This document shows positions 29,029-35,156 of a stretch of DNA of 37,482 nt, in pieces. Each line of letters begins with the position of its first letter. Within the stretch, counting starts at the first letter, position 1. A model generated the notes under the pieces. That model searched no databases, had not been told where the DNA came from, and was given only the letters and a program-made list of their open reading frames with translations. The position numbers and the translations under genes were made by a program. Origin of the DNA: Alistipes senegalensis (GTDB lineage Bacteria > Pseudomonadota > Gammaproteobacteria > Burkholderiales > Burkholderiaceae_D); assembly GCA_023664945.1 (NCBI GenBank), contig JAMPER010000009.1:1-37482 (forward strand), given 5' to 3'.

Positions 29029-29786
29029 CGGTTAAACAGAACAGGATGGCGCAGAGAATTTGCTATCGGCCCGGGCTGCTGTTTTTTGCAGCGGGCTTTT
29101 TTTGCAGCGTTGCCTTTGCGCAGGCAGAAGGGGATGCGGCGGCAGGCAGGCGGTTATATGAAGAAGGGCGGTATGAGCAGGCTTTGCCATTGATGAGCAA
29201 GGCTGCGGAAGCCGGAGACAGGGAGGTGCAATACCGGCTTTGCCTGATGTTCAAGCGCGGGCAGGGCATGAAAAAGCCTGATGCGCAAAAGGCGTATGCC
29301 TGGTGCCGGAAGTCGGCAGAACAGGGGTATGGCCCTGCGGAGTATGAGACAGCAGCGAGCCTTTATGCCGGTTTGGGGACAGAAAAAGATACGGCTGCCG
29401 CACTGGATTATTATATGCGCGCTTCCCGCCAGGGGGTGCCGGAGGCGCAATATGCGCTGGGGATGCTGTATGAATCTGGCGATGGCGGTGTTACGCAAAG
29501 TTATTACCAGGCACGTACGCTTTATATGTGGGCATCCGGCAAGGGATATGCGCCGGCGACTTACCGGGTTGGCACGATGTATGAGGAAGGAAAGGGCGTG
29601 CGGCCGAGCATGGCGGCAGCTTTGCGCTGGTACCGCAAGGCGGCTTCGATGGGAAACGGGGATGCACTGGCCCGCCTGGAAGCATTGAAGAAGCAGGAAG
29701 AAGAGATGGAAGCGGCTGTCCGCGCAGCCGTGACGGCGGGTGGCCAGCCAGGGGGCGCTGTGATGCCTGGCCGTGAAGGAGGATAA
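29025..29786 (+). CDS. Secreted Sel1-repeat protein with four repeats (operon gene 4)
   Basis: A 253-residue product that starts inside the stop of gene 3 (ATGA). A signal peptide (PGLLFFAAGFFCSVAFAQA) is followed by a TPR-like unit (AAAGRRLYEEGRYEQALPLMSKAAEAGD), four Sel1 repeats and a C-terminal stretch LEALKKQEEEMEAAVRAAV that looks like a short charged helix. One Cys lies in each of the first repeat's helices (RLCLMF and AWCRKS), which could pair in the periplasm. It lies 7 bp before the next gene. Confidence 0.88.
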   Translation: MTVKQNRMAQRICYRPGLLFFAAGFFCSVAFAQAEGDAAAGRRLYEEGRYEQALPLMSKAAEAGDREVQYRLCLMFKRGQGMKKPDAQKAYAWCRKSAEQGYGPAEYETAASLYAGLGTEKDTAAALDYYMRASRQGVPEAQYALGMLYESGDGGVTQSYYQARTLYMWASGKGYAPATYRVGTMYEEGKGVRPSMAAALRWYRKAASMGNGDALARLEALKKQEEEMEAAVRAAVTAGGQPGGAVMPGREGG

Positions 29787-29793
29787 CAAGGGA

Positions 29794-31269
29794 ATGAATA
29801 AGGGATGGTTTGGAAAAACGGTTGGGCCGGTTCTGGCAAAGGGATGCCTGGCAGTTGCTTTGCTGGCAGGATTTGCGGCTGCTGTGCCGGCACAGGAAGG
29901 GGATTTTGAGGAAGGCACACGCGCTTATGCCGCTGGTGAATATGGCCGTGCTTTTGCGCTGACGGCCAGGGCGGCTGAAGCGGGCGATGCCCGCGCCCAG
30001 ACGGCGGCGGGGCTGATGTGTGAACTGGGGCGGGGGACCCGGAGAAGCGCGCGGGAGGCGGTGAAATGGTACCGGCAGGCGGCCGGGCAGAATTTCCCGA
30101 TGGCGTTTTTCAAGATGGGCGAGATGTATGAGCATGGCATTGGCGTGAAGCAGGATGACGAGGAGGCGCTTTCCTGGTACCGCAAGGCGGCTGCCGAATC
30201 ATACGGGGATACGGCTTATCTGGTAGGGAGCTGGTACCGGAGCGGCAGGGGCACGGCAAAGGATGATTCGCAGGCGGCGCGCTGGCTGGAAAAGGCGGCA
30301 GACAAGGGCCATGTTGAAGCGCAGAAGATTTTGGCCGGCATGTATATGCGCGCCGAGGGGGTGGTGCAAAATGATGAGGAATCGGCCCGGTTGTATAAAA
30401 AGGCGGCGGAGGCCGGGGATGCCGAAGCGCAGTACACCATGGGACTGTTGTATGCGTTCGGGCGCGGGGTATATCAGGATGCCGCAGACGCCATGAAGAT
30501 GTTTGAGCTGGCGGCCGGACAGGGGTATGCGGATGCCTTTTATGAGGTGGGATCAATGTACCTTTACGGCGAGGGCGTATGGATGAGAAATGAGGAAAAG
30601 GCGCTCGAGTGGCTGAAAAAATCGGCAGAGGCGGGAGATGCGAAGGGGATGTACAGCCTGGGGCTGATGTATAGCAAGGGGCAGGGGACTGCCAGGGATA
30701 ATGCCGAGGCAGCGCGCTGGCTGGAAAGGGCGGCAAGCCAGGGCCATGCCGGAGCGGAGGCGGCTTTGGGCCTGATGTATGCGGCAGGCGAAGGCGTGCC
30801 ACAGGATGCGGCCAGGGCATTTGCCTGGATGGGAAAGGCGGCAGCGCAAGGGGATGCGGCAGCCCAGTTTAACCTGGGGGTGATGCACAGCCAGGGGATT
30901 GGGGGCGAACCGGATTATGCCCGCGCTGCGCAATGGTTCAGGAAGGCTGCCGAACAGGGCCATGCCATGGCGCAATATAACCTGGGATGGCTTTATGGCA
31001 ATGGGCGCGGCGTACCGTTTTCGGCTAACCGGACGATATACTGGTTTGAAAAGGCGGCTCGCCAGGGCAATGTGGATGCGCAGTATTCGCTGGGACGGCT
31101 CTATGAGCAGGGGTGGCAGGCAGCGCCGGATGCAGACAAGGCGGCCGAGTGGTATAAGAAAGCGGCTGATCAGGGGGACGAGAATGCCCGGCAGCGCCTG
31201 GCGGCGCTGAAAGGGACGGATGTGCCGGCTTATTCTGCCGAGCCGCAGCAGCCGGAATTTCTGTTGTGA
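29794..31269 (+). CDS. Large secreted Sel1-repeat protein with eleven repeats (operon gene 5)
   Basis: A 491-residue protein. A signal peptide (VLAKGCLAVALLAGFAAAVPAQ) is followed by a short TPR-like unit and eleven consecutive Sel1 repeats of 36-37 residues (about 65-475). The repeats are very regular, several sharing near-identical D-A-A-A-Q-F-N-L-G and F-R-K-A-A-E-Q-G-H segments, so the protein should be one long right-handed solenoid. The short Pro/Gln-rich end is PAYSAEPQQPEFLL. The start at ATG 29794 has AAGGAGG and AAGGGA upstream; a GTG at 29773, inside the previous gene, is in frame but less likely. It is probably the main scaffold of the cluster. Confidence 0.9.
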   Translation: MNKGWFGKTVGPVLAKGCLAVALLAGFAAAVPAQEGDFEEGTRAYAAGEYGRAFALTARAAEAGDARAQTAAGLMCELGRGTRRSAREAVKWYRQAAGQNFPMAFFKMGEMYEHGIGVKQDDEEALSWYRKAAAESYGDTAYLVGSWYRSGRGTAKDDSQAARWLEKAADKGHVEAQKILAGMYMRAEGVVQNDEESARLYKKAAEAGDAEAQYTMGLLYAFGRGVYQDAADAMKMFELAAGQGYADAFYEVGSMYLYGEGVWMRNEEKALEWLKKSAEAGDAKGMYSLGLMYSKGQGTARDNAEAARWLERAASQGHAGAEAALGLMYAAGEGVPQDAARAFAWMGKAAAQGDAAAQFNLGVMHSQGIGGEPDYARAAQWFRKAAEQGHAMAQYNLGWLYGNGRGVPFSANRTIYWFEKAARQGNVDAQYSLGRLYEQGWQAAPDADKAAEWYKKAADQGDENARQRLAALKGTDVPAYSAEPQQPEFLL

Positions 31270-31285
31270 GCGCATAGGGTAAGGG

Positions 31286-31984
31286 ATGGGCAGTTTTTTC
31301 CGGTGTCCGCCGCTGTTTGCGGCATGTTGCCTGGCTGCTTTTTTGTCTTGCCTGGTTTTGCCGGGGTGGGCGGATGATTTTGCCGATGGGGCCACGTTTT
31401 TCCGCAACGGGCAGTACCGCCAGGCGCTGGCAGCTTATTTGCGTGCAGCGCAGGCCGGCCATGCCGGGGCGCAGAATAATTTGGGCAACCTGTATGCGCA
31501 GGGATGCGGCACGGCAAAAAATGAGTCTGAGGCGGTAAAGTGGTTTACAAAATCGGCCGGGCAGGGTTTTGTGCTGGCACAGCGCAATCTGGCCAGGATG
31601 TATCAGGAAGGGCGCGGTGTAAAGAAGGATGCCGGCAAGGCGCTGGCATGGTACCGGAAGGCGGCGCTTCAGGGCGATGCTTTTTCCCAGTACCAGACGG
31701 GATTGTTTTATGCCCGGGGAGAGGGTGTTCGGCAGGATTATGTCAAGGCGCGCCATTGGCTGGCCAAAGCCGCTGAACAGGGGCAGGCAGATGCCATGGT
31801 TTCGCTGGCGATGCTTTCCGAGGCGGGACTGGGCAAACCGCGTGATATTGCCGAGGCGTTAAGGTGGTATGACAAGGCAGCGTTGCGCGGCAAAACGCAG
31901 GCAGCTGCCAGGGCGGATGCCTTGCGGGCCGGCGGGGAACAGGCGGCCATGCAACTGCGCCAACCTGACCGCCGGAAGCAGTAG
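31286..31984 (+). CDS. Secreted Sel1-repeat protein with four repeats (operon gene 6)
   Basis: A 232-residue product with a signal peptide (PPLFAACCLAAFLSCLVLPGWADD), one TPR-like unit (GATFFRNGQYRQALAAYLRAAQAGH), four Sel1 repeats and a charged tail. SD TAAGGG stands directly before the ATG, 16 bp after gene 5, so it closes the operon. No good terminator was seen after it; the following DNA turns AT-rich within about 30 bp. Confidence 0.88.
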   Translation: MGSFFRCPPLFAACCLAAFLSCLVLPGWADDFADGATFFRNGQYRQALAAYLRAAQAGHAGAQNNLGNLYAQGCGTAKNESEAVKWFTKSAGQGFVLAQRNLARMYQEGRGVKKDAGKALAWYRKAALQGDAFSQYQTGLFYARGEGVRQDYVKARHWLAKAAEQGQADAMVSLAMLSEAGLGKPRDIAEALRWYDKAALRGKTQAAARADALRAGGEQAAMQLRQPDRRKQ

Positions 31985-32241: not shown

Positions 32242-32262
32242 TATAACTGGCATCCAGTTATA
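32242..32262 (-). terminator. Hairpin at the end of the HDAC-like/MBL operon
   Basis: A 9-bp perfect stem TATAACTGG/CCAGTTATA with a CAT loop lies 1 bp past the MBL gene stop. The minus-strand tail TTATTCT is only a weak U tract. Confidence 0.5.
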
Positions 32263-32263
32263 A

Positions 32264-33145
32264 TTAGAATTTAAGTGTTTCTCCATCAAATGGTATCAAG
32301 ACTTTATCCCTTATTCCTTTTTTCCGGGCATACTGTGACAAGTCTTTGCGATCCACTGTCATGTGGTTGATGGCATCCATGTGAATTGCCACTACATCAG
32401 CCTTGGGCATCTTTGTCACCATTTTCCAGACATCTTCCTTGCCCATGATTATTTCCGGCGCGTCCTTGAATTTTTCAACAGACATGGAAGCGCCACCAGC
32501 ATTGACAATAATCACATCCGGCGCATGCTTTGACAGAGCCTCATCCACACCTTCAAACCAGATGGTATCGCCCACAAGCCACGCTTTTTTGCCGCCGGAT
32601 GTTGTAAAGACAACTCCCATCACTTCTCCAAGAGCTTTGCCAAGGGCCGGATCAGCATACATGGTTTTTGAGCCGTGCTGCGTGGCTGTTCTTTCCATCT
32701 TTACTTTTCCGAATTCGTCAGACTCTTTCATTATGCGCACATTGGTGAAACCCTGGTTCTTTACAACTTTCGCATCTTCCCCATTTTGCACATAAAAAGG
32801 TATGTCTTTGGGCAATGCCTCCTGTGCCGCCTTGTCCCAGTGATCAAGATGGGTATGGGTGAGAACCACCGCGTCCACGCCATCAAGAATATCTTTCACA
32901 GGCATGGGCAGGGGGGTTAAAGGATTGCGGAGCCAGCTGCGATAGGTGTCGGGAAAACCCTCATACGCCCCGACTTCTGCGAACATCGGGTCAATAAGGA
33001 AGGTAGTGTCGCCGCTTGCAAGTTTTATGGTGGCATTCCTGATATGCTGGAGTGACAAATCATTATCCGCCGCTTTCGCAAGGTTCAGGTTGACGGTTAA
33101 TGCGAATGTAAGTACAAGGGACAGGGTGAATATCAGACGCTTCAT
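32264..33145 (-). CDS. Periplasmic metallo-beta-lactamase-fold hydrolase (UlaG-like)
   Basis: A 293-residue protein with a signal peptide (MKRLIFTLSLVLTFALTVNLNLAKA). The metallo-beta-lactamase fold is UlaG-like: HIRNATIKLASGDTTFLIDPMF at the start, the metal motif LTHTHLDHWD, a downstream His in ATQHGSK, Asp in WLVGDTIWFEG, and a final His in VAIHMDAINH. All metal ligands appear intact. Relatives hydrolyse lactones or phosphodiesters; the substrate is unknown. A good SD (GGGAGA) precedes the start. It lies 27 bp downstream of the HDAC-like gene and shares its MerR-type promoter. Codon use is more AT-rich than in the flanking genes, which suggests transfer. Confidence 0.88.
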   Translation of the reverse strand: MKRLIFTLSLVLTFALTVNLNLAKAADNDLSLQHIRNATIKLASGDTTFLIDPMFAEVGAYEGFPDTYRSWLRNPLTPLPMPVKDILDGVDAVVLTHTHLDHWDKAAQEALPKDIPFYVQNGEDAKVVKNQGFTNVRIMKESDEFGKVKMERTATQHGSKTMYADPALGKALGEVMGVVFTTSGGKKAWLVGDTIWFEGVDEALSKHAPDVIIVNAGGASMSVEKFKDAPEIIMGKEDVWKMVTKMPKADVVAIHMDAINHMTVDRKDLSQYARKKGIRDKVLIPFDGETLKF

Positions 33146-33172
33146 TTTTTCTCCCTCAAATTGGTTTTGCTG

Positions 33173-34300
33173 TTACTCTGCCTGGAATTTCCAGTAAGGC
33201 GAAAGAATGCGCTTCACTTCCTCTATGGCTTTTTCCTGATCGGGCGTAAGTTTGTTACCCACAATCAGGCCGGTGACAGGATCTATCACTTCCGTTTCTT
33301 CACCACTCATTGCCTCAATGCTTTTGAGGATACAAAATGACATGTAATTTCCTTTTCCACCTTCCAGAATGGCAATAAGATGTCCATGGGCATGGTTATC
33401 CGCGATGTCTTGAACGATTTCCACAAGCTTTTTATAGCCATCAGCAGTTATTTGCTGACGGCAAAGCGGATCAAAGATATTGGAGGCGTAACCGGCGATG
33501 AGAACAACCAGTTCCGGTTTGTACTGTTCAGCGACCGGGACGATAATATCGGTAAATGCCTTGATGTATGCATCGTCTCCCGCACCGGATGGCATAGGAA
33601 TGACGACATTGTAGCCTTTCCCCCTGCCTTCTCCAATCATGTCGGCATTTCTGTCAGCTACGCTATTTTCCTCAAACGCGCCAGTCTGATGAACTTCCGC
33701 ATAAAGCACTTCATCGGTGTTGTACCAGGCATCCTCAATGCCTTTTTTGTAGTGATTGTCAAAGTCTATGATCATTATGCGTTTCAGGCCGTATTTTTGA
33801 CGTGCATATTCAACAAGTATGTTGAAATCATTGACGACACAGAAACCAAAGCCCTTGTCCCGCTCCGCATGTGCTGACGGCGGCCTTTGCAGGCAAAATG
33901 CGTTATCGATTTTGCCCTGCATTATCATGTCCAGGGCATTCTTGTCGCCGCCAACTGCTTCGCGGATTACGTTAAGGCCCTTATGGCCAATCTGACAGTA
34001 TTCGCCAACTTCCCCGCCTCCGGCATTGCTCAGGGCATCAAGTTTGTCGATGTACTCACGCGAATGGAAGCCAACCAGTTTTTCCTTGTCTTCCAATCGG
34101 GTGGGAACAAATGTCAGCTTGTCCAGCAAGCCTGTTTTTTTTAAAAGATCATATGCCTCTGCCACCCGCTCCGGCGTATCATAATAGTCGTTTGTCGCTA
34201 TCCATGGATTGTACCCGGCAGACATGCAAAGGTAGCCATCGCTTGCCTTGTAATCCGCAAAATTGCCGGAATACATCAAACCGGTTTTTCTTTTAGACAT
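33173..34300 (-). CDS. Class II histone-deacetylase-fold protein with altered active site
   Basis: A 375-residue member of the bacterial class II HDAC/acetylpolyamine-amidohydrolase family, recognisable over its whole length (LVGFHSREYIDKLDALSNAGGGEVGE; GFGFCVVNDFNI; SGAGDDAYIKAF; FDPLCRQQITADGYKKL). Known members use a Zn ion bound by Asp, His and Asp plus a His pair and a Tyr. Here RPPGHHA reads RPPSAHA (Ala143), the D-x-H-H site reads D181-N-H183-Y, the usual third ligand Asp is Ala272 (AGYASN), and the Tyr of EGGY is Lys316. Two metal ligands remain, but deacetylation as in HDACs is unlikely. The start at 34300 has SD GGAGGAAA. No signal peptide is seen, so it is cytoplasmic. It is the first gene of the MerR-type operon. 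Confidence 0.88.
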   Translation of the reverse strand: MSKRKTGLMYSGNFADYKASDGYLCMSAGYNPWIATNDYYDTPERVAEAYDLLKKTGLLDKLTFVPTRLEDKEKLVGFHSREYIDKLDALSNAGGGEVGEYCQIGHKGLNVIREAVGGDKNALDMIMQGKIDNAFCLQRPPSAHAERDKGFGFCVVNDFNILVEYARQKYGLKRIMIIDFDNHYKKGIEDAWYNTDEVLYAEVHQTGAFEENSVADRNADMIGEGRGKGYNVVIPMPSGAGDDAYIKAFTDIIVPVAEQYKPELVVLIAGYASNIFDPLCRQQITADGYKKLVEIVQDIADNHAHGHLIAILEGGKGNYMSFCILKSIEAMSGEETEVIDPVTGLIVGNKLTPDQEKAIEEVKRILSPYWKFQAE

Positions 34301-34346
34301 TTGAATTTCCTCCAATGGTTGAGAGTTTCAATTACCGGACCCCCAG

Positions 34347-34377
34347 ACTGTAAAGCCTGTAGCTACTATAGGGTCAA
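34347..34377 (-). promoter_or_regulatory. MerR-family-type promoter with 19-bp spacer and dyad operator
   Basis: On the minus strand -35 TTGACC (34372-34377) and -10 TACAGT (34347-34352) are separated by 19 bp, longer than normal, the hallmark of promoters untwisted by MerR-type activators. The spacer and edge contain the near-perfect dyad CCTGTAG-CTA-CTATAGG (plus-strand order, 34356-34372), very similar to CadR/PbrR/ZntR-class operators. Transcription would begin near 34340, about 40 nt before the HDAC-like start. No merR-like gene is in the window. The remainder of 34301-34594 holds no gene. Confidence 0.75.
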
Positions 34378-34653: not shown

Positions 34654-34998
34654 TCAGCGTGCCATTCCCGCTGCCAGGAAAGAAATCACCAGTGAATTGA
34701 GGGATACCCCTTCCGCTTTTGCCCGGGCTGTCATTTGCGCATGAAGCGATTTTGGCACACGGGCAACGAACTTGCCGGAAGCCACCCCGCCGCTATTTGG
34801 CGCGGGTATAGGAAACCCAGCTTCTTCCAGCGCAGTGATAGTTTCAACTAACGCTTCTCTTCCATTAGCAATCGCTTCTTCAAGCGTTGCGCCATCCGAG
34901 ATGCACACATTAAAATCAGGATAGGAGATCAAGAAGCCACCACCTTCCTTTTCTGTCAGCGGGCGAATTTCAAAAGGATATTTGTCAATATCTCGCAT
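34654..34998 (-). CDS. hicB: HicB-family antitoxin
   Basis: A 114-residue antitoxin. The N-terminal RNase-H-like fold is typical (YPFEIRPLTEKEGGGFLISYPDFNVCISDGATLEEAIANGREALVETI). The C-terminus carries a short ribbon-helix-helix segment (GKFVARVPKSLHAQMTARAKAEGVSLNSLVISFLA) that should bind the operator at 35159-35173. HicB neutralises HicA and represses the operon. The ATG at 34998 overlaps the hicA stop by 1 base (TGATG), so translation is coupled. The hicA-hicB order is the usual one for HicB proteins with such a C-terminus. Confidence 0.9.
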   Translation of the reverse strand: MRDIDKYPFEIRPLTEKEGGGFLISYPDFNVCISDGATLEEAIANGREALVETITALEEAGFPIPAPNSGGVASGKFVARVPKSLHAQMTARAKAEGVSLNSLVISFLAAGMAR

Positions 34999-35156
34999 CA
35001 ATAATCAACTTCCATCATCCTGGTGATTTTCATCACATACACCGGCTTTACAGGCCGGTGAATAGGGACAGGCAACATTCTGCCGTCAAGCCAAGTGAAA
35101 ACGCAATGACTTGATCCACGCTGCCGCCATGTCAAATCATATTGCTTCGCAACCAT
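34998..35156 (-). CDS. hicA: HicA-family mRNA interferase toxin (short N-terminus)
   Basis: A 52-residue protein directly before hicB. The HicA core is clear: R-Q-R-G-S-S-H-C-V-F with the catalytic His17, then DGRMLPVPIHRPVKPVYVMK, a version of the double-stranded-RNA-binding-like HicA fold seen in members with the H-R/K-P-V/I-K-P-V-Y-V ending. HicA cleaves mRNA. Relatives usually have 10-25 more residues before the G-S-x-H motif; here an in-frame TGA stands 3 codons upstream of the ATG at 35156, so the first helix is short or lost. No good SD is visible and the likely transcription start is only a few bases upstream, so translation may be nearly leaderless. It may be a weakened toxin. Confidence 0.72.
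   Translation of the reverse strand: MVAKQYDLTWRQRGSSHCVFTWLDGRMLPVPIHRPVKPVYVMKITRMMEVDY

Follow-up and report, generated by a model that had tools for sequence, protein, structure and literature searches.

Can a heavy-metal sensor of the CadR/PbrR type control genes that are not metal pumps? The question is raised by an operon in the window, the whole stretch of 37,482 nucleotides analysed here, which is contig C16 of a 1.93-Mb Oxalobacter genome. A promoter of MerR type stands there in front of genes for an HDAC-fold protein and an MBL-fold hydrolase. The features of the locus are as follows.

34347 to 34377, minus strand: MerR (CadR/PbrR)-type promoter with -35 box TTGACC, a 19-bp spacer carrying the dyad CTATAGTAGCTACAG, and -10 box TACAGT
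33173 to 34300, minus strand: HDAC-fold protein P0001, 375 aa, with A143-H144, D181-N182-H183, A272 and K316 replacing HH, D-x-H, D and Y
32264 to 33145, minus strand: SaxA-like MBL-fold hydrolase P0002, 293 aa, with H97, H99, D101, H102, H157, D193 and H255 kept
32242 to 32262, minus strand: terminator-like hairpin directly 3' of the MBL gene, a possible end of the operon

Promoter and surroundings of the operon

Positions 34377 to 34347 of the minus strand read TTGACC-CTATAGTAGCTACAGGCTT-TACAGT, a 31-mer with a spacer of 19 bp, as the earlier note had described. This operator was the single match in the window at up to three mismatches, and none of 100 shuffles contained a match. The dyad had been called close to CadR/PbrR operators. 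It shares 18 of 23 bases with the consensus that a part of PMC12301328 gives for CadR of P. aeruginosa, and 19 of 23 when read on the opposite strand; the runner-up places in the window reach 15 of 23. A 19-bp-spacer promoter with a CadR-type dyad, the mark of a CadR/PbrR regulon member, is thus present. The site was absent from the output of a sigma-70 scan of the window with spacers of 16 to 18 bp. The HDAC-fold gene lies 46 bp from the promoter, and the MBL gene follows 27 bp past the HDAC stop. Neither product matched a transporter family, which rules out reading the two genes as metal pumps and agrees with the earlier note on this point. In the region, 7 terminator-like sites were observed against 3.9 (sd 2.3) in shuffles, so the hairpin behind the MBL gene is weak evidence of a terminator.

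Beside the operon promoter, a HicB-like antitoxin (PF05534) is encoded at 34654 to 35156 on the minus strand, and a 52-aa ORF upstream of it is HicA-like by eye. Between 32001 and 36000, the GC content passes from about 0.61 to 0.44-0.47, and near 32 kb, at the end of the operon, the GC skew reverses. This could mark an island border, though the gene strand switches there too. Two adjacent Sel1-repeat proteins of 498 and 232 aa occupy 29773 to 31984. ORFs of these two lengths also lie behind the MBL gene at a locus of a sister Oxalobacter (L042), so the two Oxalobacter genomes seemingly carry the operon in the same location.

Regulator gene and operator sites

The earlier note had seen no MerR-type gene in the window, had placed the regulator elsewhere, and had advised scanning the genome for such a gene and for further copies of the dyad. 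The MerR family search of the genome gave two genes, on contigs C8 and C15, and none on the window contig C16. The gene at C8:944958 scores 168.1 bits against TIGR02047 (cut-off 151.45), and it is the genome's single CadR-PbrR equivalog. Its first 115 residues align with the CadR of PDB 6jgf, which we take to be from P. putida. By eye, its product has C77, C112, the pair C131-L-C133, and C140. The Pb response of PbrR requires C14, C79 and C134, with C134 lying within a CVC motif (PMC3431237, in part); C14 of PbrR is without a counterpart in the C8 CadR. Divergent from the C8 gene is an ORF for a His-rich P-type ATPase of 764 aa (heavy-metal translocating, TIGR01525, 613.1 bits). The ATPase promoter, at C8:944880-944910, reads TTGACT-CTATAGCGGCTACAGGGTT-TCTAAT; it has a 19-bp spacer and the same operator type as the window. 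A dyad scan at up to one mismatch found two places in the Oxalobacter genome, the window site and this ATPase site. The advised scan therefore led to a CadR gene outside the window, next to the other dyad.

A shorter dyad pattern gave one extra site with one mismatch, at C8:858609; it sits where a gene that looks AraC-like by eye ends, and was taken as chance. The C15 gene was set aside as the regulator. It encodes a short, general MerR-type protein, no dyad was found on C15, and it adjoins a gene resembling integration host factor.

The arrangement is the same as in known CadR/PbrR regulons, which have the 19-bp-spacer promoter, this dyad type, a regulator divergent from a P-type ATPase, and about two sites per genome. 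Of 13 genomes in the genus, nine encode CadR, including 7/7 of the good ones. The HDAC gene occurred in two of the 13, one of them carrying a remnant. The frequency of CadR in the genus indicates that the HDAC-MBL operon probably joined a pre-existing CadR regulon.

Ten genomes were scanned for the dyad at up to two mismatches, with all matches listed and the reversed pattern as a control. At up to one mismatch, the dyad always stood before a P-type ATPase (10/10 genomes) or an HDAC gene (six genomes: G000, G195, G196, G200, G201 and G262). The HDAC site of G304 has two mismatches with TTGACC in place, and G006, which carries an HDAC remnant, has the ATPase site only. At two mismatches, the pattern found fewer matches than the reversed control in all ten genomes, so only near-perfect sites count; the other two-mismatch sites were counted without a one-by-one look for a -35 box. 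Between the window site and the other HDAC sites, 20-22 of 31 bases are identical, compared with 13-21 of 60 in the upstream flanks and 13-20 of 70 downstream. Because the sites had been picked by their dyad, this identity was set aside as independent evidence, and weight was placed on operator position instead. In a check independent of the sites, eight loci were fetched by protein alone (73,545 bases) and searched for the operator core at up to three mismatches. The core appeared at five places, and each of the five is where a promoter of the HDAC gene, or of the ATPase that precedes it, would lie. Shuffles of the loci (n = 10) gave 0-5 core matches, with a mean of 1.8. The count is little above the shuffles, and so position rather than number is the evidence.

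The right half of the operator is CTACAG in 3/3 Oxalobacter sites and CTATAG in 12/14 Desulfovibrionaceae sites, and it looks as if the operator had been adjusted to the resident regulator. The -35 box is weak in four of the Desulfovibrio HDAC promoters (TTGTGT, TTGCAT and, twice, TTGCGT). The regulator of Desulfovibrio ZJ369 has TIGR02047 as its best family at 143.9 bits, which lies below the equivalog cut-off of 151.45.

Close HDAC-fold homologues were found at eight loci in a scan of genome contigs. Among the Desulfovibrionaceae, the family of G198, 7 of 288 genomes held a homologue (E 1e-60), a set that overlaps with the eight loci. Samples of larger groups were also searched. The class of G197 gave two genomes with a homologue among 350 (E 1e-100). 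The phyla of G198 (345 genomes, E 1e-100) and G197 (398 genomes, E 1e-85) gave one each, the centre genome. The wider distribution of the subfamily is thin. In the HDAC tree, the window gene groups with G195, G196 and G262 with a support of only 80/79, and the GC content of the window pair is 0.474 versus 0.655 in G195.

Thirteen loci were read, and several of the relatives are MAG contigs. Nine HDAC genes are full-length (window, G195, G196, G262, G198, G255, G304, G197 and G689). Two have an in-frame internal deletion with promoter and start kept (G200 and G201), and two are remnants (G006 and G202). At L043:4946-5359 and L044:924-1274, in two MAG relatives, in-frame deletions of the HDAC gene leave the promoter, the start and the C-terminal third; these deletions could be real or assembly artefacts. 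At L042:2613-3866 (G006:C4), the sister Oxalobacter retains a C-terminal HDAC remnant without an operator and an intact MBL ORF, 93% identical. Three other Oxalobacter genomes have MBL homologues of 54-56%, with no operator in promoter position at up to three mismatches and no HDAC orthologue.

Upstream DNA was readable at 11 loci, and a CadR-type operator was present at nine of them. It lies directly 5' of the HDAC gene in seven loci. In the other two, G198 and G255, both Desulfovibrionaceae, it lies 5' of an ATPase-HDAC row; the order is a MerR gene divergent from ATPase-HDAC, with one site for both. A further P-type ATPase gene stands 5' of the operator in G304. The neighbourhood search for pairs with the same operator, which the earlier note had also advised, thus found this operator type before HDAC orthologues in Desulfovibrionaceae. 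The dyad might instead be a chance or relict site, with the operon transcribed from another promoter. The remnant in G006 speaks for this, having lost the operator while its MBL gene is still open, so the MBL can be kept without the operator. We consider it very improbable, given the nine of 11 loci with this site type before the HDAC gene or its row, and given that the sigma-70 scan (spacers 16-18) returned no other minus-strand promoter just 5' of the window operon. The shared operator type, the CadR gene and the ATPase-HDAC rows argue that the window HDAC-MBL pair very probably belongs to a CadR-type metal regulon, as a second target of the C8 regulator. The case drawn from these sequences is a strong one for the regulatory anatomy rather than for the metal response itself.

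The HDAC-fold protein and the MBL-fold hydrolase

The start of P0001 was set at ATG 34300, which is preceded by GGAGG. A longer ORF of 380 aa with a TTG start was judged less probable, given the ribosome site in front of the ATG. P0001 contains a Hist_deacetyl domain (Pfam PF00850, 216.6 bits). It matches HDAC6 and HDAH (PDB 5g0h and 5g13) with 273.3 bits over two domains and 216.8 bits, at residues 30-344 and 36-346, respectively. The HH pair, the Asp-His-Asp metal site and the catalytic Tyr of HDACs have the roles described in the HDAC literature. In the comparison with HDAC6 and four canonical outgroup proteins, the first catalytic His is replaced by A143, the third metal-ligand Asp by A272, the catalytic Tyr by K316, and the second His of D-x-H-H by Y184. 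Judged by sequence, the class II HDACs and HDAC-like amidohydrolases (HDAC6 and HDAH) belong to the same fold family as P0001, but P0001 lacks their complete set of HH, Asp-His-Asp and Tyr. The earlier note's changed active site is thus present, and it is rewired in the same way in the relatives. A143-H144, D181, H183, Y184, A272 and K316 are identical in 8/8 aligned members, and the canonical outgroups (n = 4) carry H, D and Y at 143, 272 and 316. Read by eye, the residues of the distant G689 protein are G, A and Q at these three positions and Cys at 182. None of the nine full-length members has the catalytic His at 143, the Asp ligand at 272 or the catalytic Tyr at 316, and H144, D181 and H183 are kept in all nine.

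The dN/dS ratio of the HDAC-fold gene was 0.07-0.13 in four pairs of relatives, which is purifying selection. In pairs that include the window gene, silent sites were saturated except with the G006 remnant (0.14). These ratios, together with the invariant changed residues, indicate a maintained subfamily and not decay, and decay of the window gene is unlikely on the same grounds. From its sequence, P0001 is a maintained protein that nevertheless should not act as a normal deacetylase. The subfamily is a candidate for a new activity or a pseudoenzyme within the HDAC superfamily.

P0002 begins with a signal peptide-like N-terminus (by eye); the MBLs of G198 and G201 apparently do not. H97, H99, D101, H102, H157, D193 and H255, which have known ligand roles in MBL proteins, are conserved in 7/7 aligned members. 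The best solved relatives are SaxA (PDB 6brm, 241.1 bits, residues 31-293) and PDB 3rpc, a possible metal-dependent hydrolase, which matches nearly as well (238.5 bits). Three solved sequences were matched at E 0.001, namely SaxA, 3rpc and a UPF0173 hydrolase. UlaG was not among them, and the UlaG-like identity given in the earlier note was replaced by a SaxA-like one. The sole NCBIfam match, PRK00685, was below its cut-off. P0002 has the MBL fold, the HxHxDH site in common with SaxA, and full-length similarity to it, and is by sequence a candidate SaxA-type enzyme. It differs from SaxA in its signal peptide-like N-terminus and its metal-type promoter. SaxA and 3rpc are likewise the top solved matches of the G198, G201 and G689 MBLs.

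Both the HDAC and the MBL fold usually carry a divalent metal. The two proteins could therefore be metal buffers or metalloproteins that bind surplus Zn or Cd, and true metal-resistance proteins. Their operator type is the same as that of the pump, and the HDAC-fold protein retains D181, H183 and H144. The third HDAC metal ligand, however, is lost: with A272 in place of Asp, the known HDAC metal site should be weaker. There is also no His-rich stretch like that of the ATPase N-terminus. We consider this reading improbable.

Downstream DNA was readable at 12 loci, and in nine of these the HDAC gene is followed by a SaxA-like MBL. The MBLs of the window, G195, G196, G262, G200 and G006 are orthologues, and those of G198, G201 and G689 belong to other subfamilies. 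No MBL was found behind the HDAC gene in the downstream DNA of G255 and G304. The UPF0173-type MBL of G197, on the opposite strand, was excluded from the count. In the upstream DNA of the Negativicutes orthologues G197 and G689, no CadR-type operator was found. The HDAC gene of G197 adjoins an AraC-type gene, and that of G689 a TetR-like gene (TetR_N 22.1, below the Pfam cut-off of 24). Metal control is therefore not universal for the HDAC-fold family. In place of the operator, G689 has an 11-1-11 palindrome between its HDAC gene and the TetR-like gene. At L131:684-3383, in a Negativicutes genome, a distant HDAC-fold/MBL pair stands opposite a TetR-like gene, and a perfect 11-1-11 palindrome, CTGTCTATAAT-C-ATTATAGACAG, lies between. 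SaxA-like MBLs were also seen on six plasmids (L089-L094) of Acinetobacter, Cupriavidus, Achromobacter, E. coli and P. syringae. Helix-turn-helix regulators lie nearby, and in 3/6 an isochorismatase-type or cysteine hydrolase gene is next to the MBL; the regions inspected around the six held no metal gene.

A serious alternative is that the pair is a free-standing xenobiotic hydrolase unit hooked to various sensors, and that CadR senses thiol-reactive organics through metal freed from thiols. This alternative accepts the CadR promoter and overlaps with the metal-regulon reading on regulation. It fits G689, where the distant HDAC-fold gene and the SaxA-like MBL gene are 13 bp apart beside the TetR-like gene, so the chemistry of the pair need not be metal-specific; it also fits the AraC-type neighbour in G197, the recurrence of SaxA-like MBLs of several subfamilies 3' of the HDAC gene, and the degradation of isothiocyanates by SaxA (PMC7036374, in part). 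Set against it, the linked sensor type is CadR-like in Desulfovibrionaceae and Oxalobacter, and the pump comes first in the row in two genomes. In our judgement, it falls a little short of being probable.

Proposed mechanism and meaning

For the metal-regulon reading, we propose the following course of events at the operon (34377-32242). Without metal, CadR would occupy the 19-bp spacer and keep the promoter silent. Once Cd(II), Pb(II) or excess Zn(II) is bound, CadR would untwist this long spacer and so make the promoter usable for RNA polymerase, by analogy with PbrR and MerR (PMC3431237, in part). Both promoters would be activated, giving the HDAC-fold protein and the MBL at the same time as the P-type ATPase. 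The pump would reduce the metal level in the cytosol, and the pair may act on a small molecule that accompanies the same thiol stress or arises from it. The MBL may be an exported SaxA-like hydrolase of an electrophile or of a carbamoyl or thiocarbamoyl compound, with the HDAC-fold protein as its putative cytosolic partner, whose part may be binding or a changed chemistry. That the pair targets a thiol-reactive or acylated small molecule is a tentative and rather doubtful proposal, drawn by analogy from SaxA and the HDAC-like amidohydrolases. More speculative still is a new enzyme type, in which the HDAC fold would hold its metal through two His and one carboxylate (H144, D181 and H183). With the exported SaxA-like hydrolase, it would form a detoxification arm controlled by a metal sensor, by which gut anaerobes would connect stress from heavy metals with dietary compounds that react with thiols.

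Known CadR/PbrR regulons comprise pumps, pbr genes and one zinc-ribbon gene, as described in the consulted parts of three sources (PMC12301328, PMC3431237 and PMC1526738). The P. aeruginosa CadR regulon consists of cadR-cadA plus the zinc-ribbon gene (PMC12301328), the C. metallidurans pbr operon is a CadR/PbrR regulon (PMC3431237), and PMC1526738 is a comparative survey. The second target here is an HDAC-fold protein with an MBL, and those parts of the three sources contain no such member. A literature search for MerR, CadR or PbrR together with HDAC, the MBL fold or isothiocyanate hydrolase gave no such pair in the titles and abstract openings of the papers listed.

The usual picture of these regulons is a pump and its regulator with little else. 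Our comparison suggests that in Oxalobacter and several gut Desulfovibrio relatives the reach of metal sensing extends beyond metal export. Two unrelated groups of gut bacteria seem to put one non-pump protein, mostly with a partner hydrolase, under the CadR switch. This makes it possible to test for a connection between metal sensing and a different type of detoxification.
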